DNA of 64,000 nucleotides from Methanoculleus chikugoensis (GTDB taxonomy: Archaea; Halobacteriota; Methanomicrobia; Methanomicrobiales; Methanoculleaceae), in contig NZ_FMID01000038.1 of the NCBI RefSeq assembly GCF_900095385.1, positions 1 through 64,000 on the forward strand, given 5' to 3'. The position numbers and the translations under genes were made by a program. Shown one piece after another: positions 6,452 through 45,342 of the stretch. The first letter of the stretch is position 1; each line of letters opens with the position of its first letter. A model generated the notes under the pieces. The model was not told the origin of the DNA. It was given only the letters and a program-made list of their open reading frames with translations, and made no database searches.

Positions 6452-7579
6452 ATGCAGACGATCATCAACGAAGCGTTAAGACACGCAGAACGTGAGAAGT
6501 ACCTGAAGACGGACATGGCCGACGGCGAAGACGACATCATCGGCCAGCCACGTATTGTCATCGTAGGATGCGGTGGTGCGGGCAACAACACCGTCAACCG
6601 GCTGTACCACATGCAGGTCAGCGGTGCGGAGACAATCGCGATCAACACGGACAAGCAGCACCTGGACATGATCCAGGCCGACAAGAGAGTCCTTGTCGGC
6701 AAGTCGCTCACCAAAGGCCTTGGTGCCGGCGGTTTCCCCGACGTCGGCAGGCGTGCAGCCGAGATGGCCCGACCGACTCTGGAGGGCCTTCTCGCAGACG
6801 CCGACCTCGTCTTCATCACCGCAGGCATGGGCGGAGGCACCGGTACGGGCACCGCCCCGGTCGTCGCGCAGATCGCAAAGGAGCAGGGCGCCATCGTCGT
6901 CGGCATGGTCAGTTACCCCTTCCAGGTCGAGAAAGCCCGGCTTCTCCGCGCGGAAGAGGGGCTTGAACAGCTCTCTTCCGCTGCCGACTCGGTGATCGTG
7001 CTCGACAACAACCGCCTCATCAAGTACGTGCCGAACCTCCCGCTCGGCCAGGCGTTCTCGGTCATGGACCAGCTCATCGCGGAGACCGTCAAGGGCATCA
7101 GCGAGACGATCACAGAGCCTTCTCTCATCAACATCGACTACGCCGACGTGCGTGCCATCATGAGCAAGGGAGGCGTCGCCGTGATGCTCGTCGGCGAGAG
7201 CAAGCAGCAGAACAAAGCCGAGAGCGTCGTTCACGAGTGCCTCAACCACCCCCTGCTGGACATCGACTACCGCGGAGCCACGGGCAGCCTCATCCACATC
7301 ACGGGCGGAAACGACCTGACCCTCCAGGACGCCGAGGAGATCGCAAGCTCCCTGACCTACGAACTCGACCCCCACGCGGACGTCATCTGGGGAGCGCGGG
7401 TGAACAGCGAGTACGAAGGAAGAGTTCGCGTCATGGCGGTCATGACCGGCGTGAAAAGTGCACAGATCCTCGGAAGCCACCGCGCCTACGAACCCGCGAC
7501 CCAGCGGTCCGGCGCATCTGTCAACAGGCGCATGGCCAGGGACGCCCCGAGCGGGGGCGGCCTCATAGACTTCCTCTGA
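6452..7579 (+). CDS. ftsZ: Cell division protein FtsZ
   Basis: 375 residues. The tubulin/FtsZ GTP-binding signature [12 protein letters not shown] lies near residues 125-136, preceded by [14 protein letters not shown], and the T7-loop [11 protein letters not shown] that completes GTP hydrolysis lies near 225. The C-terminal tail ends SGGGLIDFL, a hydrophobic tip of the type that binds membrane tethers such as SepF. It polymerises into the division ring at mid-cell. The ATG at 6452 has GGAGG seven bases upstream; an in-frame TTG sits just before it. It is the second gene of an operon with the RHH regulator. Confidence 0.97.
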
Positions 7580-10327: not shown

Positions 10328-10771
10328 TCAGGCAAAATAGCCGAATCCATCGGGAAATTCGCTGACGTTCTCGTAGTGTTTGACGTCCTGGGAGGTAACG
10401 ATGGTGAGCGAGGGCACGACCACACCGAACCGGTGAGCGGGGAACCAGTACGACCCCTGCCCGTAGTCGTTCGACGCGTCCTTCACGCGCACCTCGATAC
10501 GCTCGAGATCGAGATACTGAACGCTGGCGTTGTTGAAGTTCAGTACCTCGAGTGCTTTCTGCCTCAGATCGGATTTCCCAAGGAGGAGAACGAGGAACCC
10601 GATGCCGTCGTCTATCGTATAGTTCATGGTGACGACGGCATCCGCCTTCTCCAGCCGGACGGTGACGTCTTTGACGGTGATGTAACTGTACCGCTCCTCG
10701 CCCGCCGCCACCGCGGGAGCAATGAGAGCAGCCACCAGCAGCAGCACCATGCCGACCGCCAACCGTTTCAT
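10328..10771 (-). CDS. Small secreted protein, unknown function
   Basis: 147 residues with a clear signal peptide (MKRLAVGMVLLLVAALIAPAVAAG), then a mostly beta domain containing SYITVKDVTVRLEKADAVV and DDGIGFLVLLLGKSDLR. No C-terminal anchor, so it is exported or periplasm-like. A minus-strand TTTATGAGCC box at 10791-10800 lies 26 nt before the ATG, giving a leaderless mRNA. Family not recognised; it looks like a conserved methanogen exported protein. Confidence 0.7.
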   Translation of the reverse strand: MKRLAVGMVLLLVAALIAPAVAAGEERYSYITVKDVTVRLEKADAVVTMNYTIDDGIGFLVLLLGKSDLRQKALEVLNFNNASVQYLDLERIEVRVKDASNDYGQGSYWFPAHRFGVVVPSLTIVTSQDVKHYENVSEFPDGFGYFA

Positions 10772-44195: not shown

Positions 44196-44423
44196 GTGGT
44201 GAAAATAACCATCGACAGGCCGGGATGCATCAGCTGCGAGTCGTGCTGGACGCTCTGTCCGGACGTCTTCGAACAGGATCCGAACGACGACCTGAGTTCG
44301 GTCACGGAACAGTACCGGGTCGACGGCAACCCCGCGGAGGGGGAGGTGCCCGACGACCTCGCCGACTGCGCCCTGGAGGCTGCCGACGCGTGCCCGGTCG
44401 CGGTCATCGTTGTGGAAGACTGA
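44196..44423 (+). CDS. Single-cluster ferredoxin
   Basis: 75 residues from GTG 44196 (GAGGAGGT seven bases upstream decides the start). Iron-sulfur ligands are [13 protein letters not shown] near the N-terminus and [10 protein letters not shown] at the C-terminus, the pattern of a one-cluster 3Fe/4Fe ferredoxin (CX2CX2C...CP), with an acidic insertion between. Cytoplasmic electron carrier; partner unknown. Confidence 0.88.
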
Positions 44424-44495
44424 GATCGTTAAAGGGAGGATAAAGCCGGCCTGGACGATAGGGCACAGGACAACTAGTATTCGCGCTCCGAGATA

Positions 44496-44508
44496 AAATT
44501 ATATACTT
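44496..44508 (+). promoter_or_regulatory. Strong TATA box with no gene downstream
   Basis: AAAATTATATACT in an otherwise GC-rich gap. No plus-strand gene follows; the next gene is convergent. It predicts a transcript starting near 44528. Confidence 0.6.
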
Positions 44509-44527
44509 CCAGCGCTATGGGGGATCT

Positions 44528-44690
44528 TGCCTGAGAGTGGGGTCAACCAGAAGGCACATCATCACATGATGCAGCGGGTTCACAGGCCAGGACGGTAACG
44601 GCCTGCGAACACAAAAAAAACACTGCACCATGAACCGAAATGTGCCCGGGCGTAAGGCCTTATCTCTCGGGCACCCTGTTTTCACCGATC
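44528..44690 (+). ncRNA. Candidate structured small RNA
   Basis: Downstream of the orphan TATA box are, in order: TGCCT...AGGCA (44527-44556), CATCAT-CAC-ATGATG (44558-44572), GTTCACAGGCC-N11-GGCCTGCGAAC (44578-44610), an A8 tract, and GTGCCCG...CGGGCAC (44642-44673) followed by CCTGTTTTC, a terminator shape. GGTTCA (44577-44582) can also pair with TGAACC (44631-44636), which would compete with the third hairpin. No open frame. It could serve as a terminator for the converging DUF421 gene as well. Confidence 0.5.
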
Positions 44691-44692
44691 CG

Positions 44693-45226
44693 TCACCGCC
44701 GGACCCCTGCCACATCGACCAGCACCCCCATGCCGTCGCTCTCCGTAAGCACCGAGAGGTTTCCGTTCGTCTCGAGGACGATCGAGCGCACGCTCACGGG
44801 GGAGGCGATCCCTTCCGACCGCAACGCCTGCCGGATCTCGCCTTCGGCGATCCGCTCCCGCCGCATCGCGTCGTGCAGGAACGCTCCCGCGTGGAAGAGG
44901 AGGCGGGGTTCCGACTTCACCGCCTTCTGCACCCTCTTCGACCGGACGGACGACCAGGAGACGGCGTACTGCAGCACGACCAGGATGCCGAGGGCGAGCA
45001 CCCCCTCTGCAAGCGAGACGTCCCTTGAGACGATCGTCGAGGCAAGGATCGAGCCGACGGCCACGTTCACGATGAAGTCGAAGGCGTTCATCGCCGAGAG
45101 CGTCCGCTTCCCCGAGAGGCGGACGATGATCACAAGGGCCACATACGCACATACCCCGACGATCAGAACCCGCACCAGAAAGGCAGGGTCGCCGAAGAAG
45201 ATCTCCTGCAGGAATCCGCCGCTCAT
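44693..45226 (-). CDS. DUF421 membrane protein (YetF-like)
   Basis: 177 residues. Three membrane helices in the first 90 residues (VRVLIVGVCAYVALVIIVRL and following), then the DUF421 core: LSGKRTLSAMNAFDFIVNVA, GSILASTIV and the soluble tail RRERIAEGEIRQALRSEGI. Function of the family is unknown. ATG 45226 preferred over GTG 45235. Confidence 0.85.
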   Translation of the reverse strand: MSGGFLQEIFFGDPAFLVRVLIVGVCAYVALVIIVRLSGKRTLSAMNAFDFIVNVAVGSILASTIVSRDVSLAEGVLALGILVVLQYAVSWSSVRSKRVQKAVKSEPRLLFHAGAFLHDAMRRERIAEGEIRQALRSEGIASPVSVRSIVLETNGNLSVLTESDGMGVLVDVAGVRR

Positions 45227-45342
45227 ACCCCGCACTGCACGAGGGACGGCATAGCACTTTCTGCAGGCGGGTCCTCAAAGAGGCTTTGTTGAAATCCTCC
45301 CCCAGAGGATGAATAACCTTCAAATTATCCATACGCCCTCGA

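Follow-up and report, generated by a model that had tools for sequence, protein, structure and literature searches.

A stand-alone structured RNA of a new Methanomicrobiales family in Methanoculleus chikugoensis, with a probable role in trans

The large "ornate" non-coding RNAs of bacteria, such as OLE, GOLLD, ROOL and HEARO, are stand-alone, long and highly structured. The RNAs of the CsrB/RsmZ and 6S types are protein-binding, with short GGA hairpins as modules, and the RNAs of type III toxin-antitoxin systems (ToxI) consist of tandem pseudoknotted units, which are near-identical repeats upstream of a ToxN-like toxin. To our knowledge, few structured RNA families besides the universal ones are known from methanogens. 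sRNA162 of Methanosarcina mazei is reported as a stand-alone methanogen sRNA with a base-pairing mode (PMC3510493), and the S15 r-leader motif of Methanomicrobia as a structured leader of rpsO operons (PMC7247131).

In this study, an RNA gene of M. chikugoensis was compared with these systems. Positions 44528 to ~44682 are read as a stand-alone, structured one-module RNA of a new Methanomicrobiales family, which probably works in trans through the shape into which it folds. Like OLE, GOLLD, ROOL and HEARO, this RNA is stand-alone, structured, conserved without a coding role and discovered by comparison only; unlike them, it is archaeal, has one to three copies of a docked-hairpin module, measures ~155 nt in the form analysed here and has no Rfam match. 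As in CsrB/RsmZ and 6S, modules recur within a stand-alone RNA, which suggests that one protein would have several sites, but the modules are ~78-nt pseudoknotted folds, unlike those of CsrB/RsmZ. Tandem pseudoknotted units, placed beside an endoribonuclease-domain gene in families f4 and f5, are shared with ToxI; however, the units differ widely in sequence and lie within one closing helix (P1), and the nuclease is divergent and absent from most f6 carriers. Both sRNA162 and the docked-module RNA are stand-alone methanogen RNAs, while the former comes from a different order and no link between the sequences was seen (PMC3510493). The S15 r-leader is a structured archaeal RNA of a related class, while by eye no ribosomal-protein gene lies beside the docked-module RNA (PMC7247131).

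Searched against Rfam 15, the window (the whole 64,000-nt stretch of DNA analysed) and 11 relative loci gave only tRNAs above gathering; up to E = 10, the RNA stretch of the window gave two unrelated weak matches and a three-module locus (L086) none. Archaeal SRP RNA (RF01857) was rejected as an identity, since the SRP RNA of this genome lies elsewhere (G000:C31:40746–41055). No paper on a docked-module RNA of Methanomicrobiales was found in the open-licence literature searched. Having neither an Rfam match nor a literature report, the RNA family is therefore called new, a term that applies here to an RNA family without a known relative and leaves its function aside. The family itself is well supported by comparison, which demonstrates that the gene is independent, that the RNA is closed, and that in each module two helices covary, as does the contact between loop and flank; its function is proposed from the same material.

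The RNA gene, its promoter and its boundaries

The assembly carrying the gene is a 2.65-Mb genome, of which the window is contig G000:C35. The gene and its surroundings have the following features:

44196–44423, plus strand: ferredoxin gene (PF13459), from Pfam and synteny; the conserved Methanoculleus neighbour upstream of the RNA and outside it
44467–44489, plus strand: conserved upstream region, from aligned upstream regions; the window copy is a degenerate form of the palindrome GAAYAATNGTYATTC
44498–44505, plus strand: TATA box ATTATATA, its start 30 nt 5′ of the first stem of the RNA
44528 to ~44682, plus strand: non-coding RNA gene, single-module form, from models R1 and R2, alignment A1 and conservation boundaries
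44528–44537, plus strand: helix P1, 5′ strand TGCCTGAGAG, pairing with 44664–44673; across the 26 copies, 98.5% of cells pair
44664–44673, plus strand: helix P1, 3′ strand CTCTCGGGCA, pairing with TGCCTGAGAG; T4 downstream at 44679–44682
44693–45235, minus strand: DUF421/YetF gene, downstream of and convergent with the RNA

The start of the RNA (44528) was deduced from the TATA spacing, and its end (44682) from P1 and the T4 run. Among 57 of 59 RNA genes (L077 and L104 were dropped because their P1 start was not recognised by the search expression), the TATA box started exactly 30 nt upstream of the first stem in 30 and at 26–40 nt in all 57, and it matched with at most one mismatch in 32/57 in place, vs. 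2/57 at an upstream control position and 0/55 on the antisense side, the box or start picked by the script seeming wrong by eye in at least two genes (L074 and L093). The window copy has its own TATA box at the same distance of about 30 nt 5′ of P1, and both the box and the gap without a plus-strand gene (44528–44690) had been pointed out in an earlier note on this sequence. Identity among the 26 copies was 0.55–0.86 by region within the RNA and fell to 0.37–0.38 immediately 3′ of it. Conserved TATA spacing, boundaries, covariation and a changing gene context thus uphold the view of that note that this is a complete, independent non-coding transcription unit.

The stretch 44518–44690 folded with an energy of –66.8 kcal/mol (z = –3.40), which none of 200 shuffles equalled; as the minus strand of the same stretch also folded well (–70.6, z = –3.95), folding energy alone gives no strand. 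Base-pair types leave the strand undecided too, since G-U and A.C cells were nearly equal in number (135 vs. 126). The RNA is assigned to the plus strand by the fixed-distance promoter. Lengths of the 26 single-module RNAs were evenly spread modulo 3 (9, 9 and 8), and a plus-strand frame that is open in 13 of them was not taken as coding.

At the 3′ end, a terminator hairpin with a T run had been proposed, which was not borne out: the T run is T4 only, the consensus scan gave no terminator-like site here, and the hairpin GTGCCCG/CGGGCAC had no pair changed on both sides, with 79.1% of cells paired, no more than in shuffles. As read from the alignment, this hairpin is a mis-pairing, and its 3′ strand really pairs with the RNA's own 5′ end to form P1, in which one pair carries a double change (A-U to G-C, 6 sequences among the 26 copies). 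P1, so aligned, closes the RNA on itself and joins both ends.

Upstream of the RNA, the palindrome GAAYAATNGTYATTC is intact in several Methanoculleus relatives (L012, L013, L019 and others), about 40–65 nt 5′ of P1. The pattern GAAYAATDGTYATKC was found 11 times in 10 of the 35 genus genomes, all but two of these occurrences (9 of 11) at the equivalent place before the RNA; the palindrome was therefore rejected as the mark of a regulon. A TGCGCG element, possibly a regulator site, recurs ~90 nt 5′ of P1, well before the TATA box, in many three-module RNAs (L086–L095 and L105).

The docked module and its covariation

Two covariance models were used, R1 from the 26 Methanoculleus copies and R2, a 78-nt core-module model from 25 units (alignment A2). 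Alignment A4 held 101 matches, of which the antisense L004, L005, L006 and L008 and the partial L098 were left out, giving 96 units. The interior of the RNA in the window is divided as follows:

44553–44557, plus strand: P2, 5′ strand GGCAC, pairing with 44642–44646; both-side changes in 4 of 5 pairs
44563–44641, plus strand: core module, from alignment A4 and an R2 match of 75.7 bits, the window copy itself being among the rows used to build the model
44565–44574, plus strand: lower stem, 5′ strand, pairing with 44623–44632 with one A.C mismatch; in A2, double changes in 9 of 10 pairs and 84.6% of cells paired
44578–44588, plus strand: upper stem, 5′ strand, pairing with 44600–44610 with one A.C mismatch; in A2, double changes in 10 of 11 pairs and 90.9% of cells paired
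44593–44596, plus strand: apical loop CGGT, proposed pseudoknot partner of 44634–44637
44611–44622, plus strand: A-rich hinge, 3′ side, between lower and upper stems, containing the A8 tract (44613–44620)
44634–44637, plus strand: ACCG, downstream of the module and proposed to form the pseudoknot with the apical loop

The three stems of the earlier note are present, and its 11-position stem with a single mismatch, its second stem and its A8 tract correspond to the upper stem, the lower stem and the hinge, respectively. The 40 proposed pairs, including the pseudoknot, contained 43 double-change cells in the 26 Methanoculleus copies, compared with 14.4 after shuffling (0/500). In the A2 module, 114 double-change cells were counted vs. 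38.3 shuffled (0/500), and every slid control was far lower. A.C mismatches were common, column pairs 51-112 and 64-89 being non-standard in 21 and 20 of the 26 Methanoculleus copies, respectively. The window copy has the core module of the family, in which the lower and the upper stem both covary.

Module dimensions varied little. The 5′ strand measured 10 nt in 92/96 units for the lower stem and 11 nt in 84/96 for the upper one; the 5′ hinge was 3 nt in 84/96 units, and the 3′ hinge, GAYAAAGAC-like in distant relatives, 10 nt in 72/96. Comparison of the aligned units thereby shows a module in which an asymmetric, A-rich hinge connects two helices of ~10 and ~11 bp. Such nearly fixed stem lengths are what a loop docking back onto the base would demand, and a kinked, docked geometry of the module is accordingly suggested as its likely shape.

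The loop of the window copy conforms to CGGY and has its complement, RCCG, on the 3′ side of the module. Across the 96 units, the loop/flank pair was CGGC/GCCG in 46 and CGGT/ACCG in 19, and the remainder were mixed or mis-read by the search expression, whose misreading of flanks (that of L097 unit 3, for one) leaves complementary cases understated. Loop CAGC faces flank GCTG in L093 unit 3, L097 unit 3 is likewise compensated by eye, and the odd middle module of L077 and L103 keeps CGCGG opposite CCGCG (by eye). The mean longest Watson-Crick complementarity of loop and flank over 75 distinct pairs was 3.91 with the own partner, 3.46 with permuted partners (2000 permutations, maximum 3.69) and 2.88 with shuffled letters. 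Not every unit has a perfect pseudoknot, an uncompensated CAGT being found in L012 and L019. From these compensatory changes, the stems are strongly supported and the CGGY/RCCG pseudoknot is well supported.

An alternative pairing, GGTTCA/TGAACC, had been proposed in the earlier note to compete with the main stem as a switch. The pairing can form, being possible in 91.0% of cells in Methanoculleus, but its covariation score (0.223) was no better than in shuffles (0.209) and was reached by 123 of 500. At least five pairs were available in 24/29 Methanoculleus units vs. 12/67 other units. Without excess covariation and fading beyond the genus, the competing, switch-like role was rejected.

Distribution and the three-module form

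By DNA search, the stretch was detected in 25 of the 35 genus genomes; with R1, a covariance search of the kind named as a check in the earlier note, the number rose to 28. The distribution is patchy, and since 7/35 genus genomes had no match, the RNA is not universally needed. With R2 (E ≤ 0.05), matches were obtained in 77 of the 232 genomes of Methanomicrobiales, which belong to 16 of 40 genera and at least five family groups of the order; R2 units adjoining RNase III-like genes in G087, G090, G091 and G100 had been missed by the filtered search. In a phylum sample of 391 genomes, all 39 matches fell inside Methanomicrobiales, and the "class" search took in the same 232 genomes as the order search.

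Most carrier genomes have one RNA locus. In G001 (L066), two copies lie 3.8 kb apart (6719–6871 and 10553–10705), each 3′ of its own ferredoxin gene, i.e., the pair of ferredoxin and RNA is duplicated inside 4 kb. A third RNA copy in G081 adjoins a 168-aa protein (L072:6421–6927, plus strand) that had no Pfam or NCBIfam match.

Weak matches in other families had the same start TGCCTCAG and the same TATA spacing, with the core repeated within one RNA; RNAs of Methanoculleus have a single module, and those of other families as many as three, which repeat every ~100 nt. Twelve f6 RNAs of 337–342 nt carry it three times, with 75% mean column identity and an invariant GCCGAACAAATGTTC after module 1. 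RNAalifold predicted 76 pairs for these twelve, one or more compensatory double changes being seen in 44 of the pairs, and no frame was open through any of the twelve on either strand. A length of ~340 nt with three modules is in the size range where machine-like RNAs occur, and a sizeable cellular RNA in methanogens may have been overlooked. It is conceivable, though rather doubtful, that Methanomicrobiales have in this family an ornate RNA machine that has gone unrecognised, in which three pseudoknot-locked modules gathered by the closing helix would form a multi-site particle, a ribonucleoprotein or even a catalytic RNA, and of which Methanoculleus would have a minimal one-module version with its own regulated promoter.

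Gene neighbourhood and proposed role

In the Methanoculleus-group loci measured, the RNA lies 66–115 nt 3′ of the ferredoxin gene on the same strand. Within the genus, ferredoxin was present in 29/35 and the RNA in 28/35 genomes; six genomes lacked both, which is weak evidence of function because adjacency allows joint loss. The single genome with ferredoxin only, G022, retains ~50 nt matching the 3′ end of the RNA model (15 bits, E 0.002; L116:1170–1240, minus strand), apparently a 3′ remnant, which looks as if the body had recently been deleted (or the MAG wrongly assembled). The ferredoxin linkage is confined to the Methanoculleus group: the RNA is often 3′ of a sodium:solute symporter gene in f6, and in f4 and f5 it is divergent beside a gene for a ~235-aa RNase III-domain protein (PF00636). 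No partner gene is conserved through the whole RNA family, and such exchange of neighbours favours an RNA gene that acts in trans. The trans-acting half of the earlier proposal is likely, given the separate promoter of the RNA and the absence of a conserved gene downstream; the switch-like half fell with the pairing discussed above.

The RNA would be transcribed from its own promoter and closed at both ends by P1, and its apical loop CGGY, by pairing with the RCCG that directly follows the module, would fold the module back on itself. The docked module may offer a compact surface as a putative binding site for protein, one to three modules could set how many protein copies bind, and the RNA could then serve as a ribonucleoprotein scaffold or as a protein-sequestering RNA.

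The main rival of this protein-binding role, which we regard as unlikely, is a base-pairing regulatory sRNA whose exposed segments would pair with mRNAs, e.g., that of the neighbouring ferredoxin. The apparently independent short transcription unit with conserved loops would suit such an sRNA, as would the linkage to ferredoxin with both missing from the same six of 35 genomes; however, this linkage is seen only in the Methanoculleus group, and the most conserved loop is accounted for by the internal pseudoknot. It is less favoured given the internal use of that loop and the negative result at the only target site examined: complementarity to CGGTTCAT upstream of ferredoxin, present in the window copy, was unconserved in the other 30 aligned loci and was rejected. 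The same closeness to the 3′ side of ferredoxin, and the fact that some compact pseudoknotted RNAs are riboswitches, could point to a cis-acting element, i.e., a riboswitch, a leader or a part of the ferredoxin mRNA 3′ end. This is very improbable, as the RNA has its own TATA box at fixed spacing, the downstream gene is convergent (DUF421) in the window and different elsewhere, and distant relatives have other neighbours; no conserved position upstream of a regulated gene was found among the loci compared.

A tie to the RNase III-like enzyme, with the RNA as its substrate, decoy or partner in a type III toxin-antitoxin-like pair, is also improbable, although the gene adjoins the RNA, divergently, in 10/10 f4 and 4/5 f5 genomes having the protein. 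The protein occurs in 52 of 232 order genomes and is nearly absent from f6, where many RNAs occur, so it was rejected as a universal partner; in f1 its gene is located elsewhere and also present in RNA-less genomes (G010, G016, G020, G023 and G030). R2 gave no credible unit around the RNase III-like genes of f1, f2, f6 and G102 (13 loci, L121–L128 and L130–L134), with weak matches only (E 0.07 in L122, 0.07 in L133 and 0.4 in L124), and the repeats are diverse and the adjacent nuclease is RNase III-like, divergently oriented and a neighbour in f4/f5 only, which does not fit a type III system. A guide RNA for rRNA or tRNA modification can be hairpin-based with one to three units, as H/ACA guides are, and the RNA is archaeal with such units; yet no Rfam guide family matched, the full-length stems seem, by eye, to have no guide pocket (an ACA box was likewise sought by eye), no conserved C/D box pair was seen by eye, and the D-box-like CTGA of P1 is CTCA or CTCG in f4–f6 RNAs, so that this identity is remote. 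Least credible of all is a DNA element, for instance a palindrome bound by protein or a repeat: the inverted repeats and the folding of both strands would allow it, but loop/flank co-variation, the fixed TATA distance, the sharp conservation boundaries and a single locus in most genomes fit an RNA.

The family offers strong covariation and a simple, testable module across a major methanogenic order, and it is experimentally tractable through the small RNAs with one module that cultured strains of Methanoculleus carry.

Two further observations concern neighbouring genes. The ~235-aa proteins, reminiscent of bacterial Mini-III, have an N-terminal half without an assigned domain and a C-terminal RNase III domain in which the GDA and VEA motifs are kept (e.g., L102:6237–6908 and L103:6263–6982, plus strand, and L104:5115–5828, minus strand). 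In G079, a flavoprotein gene and a peroxiredoxin-like gene (L073:459–1163 and 1724–2371, both minus strand) are located close to the RNA; by sequence, the flavoprotein is similar to the FMN reductase (PF03358) that occurs in its vicinity in f4, and these neighbours share a redox flavour with the ferredoxin neighbour.
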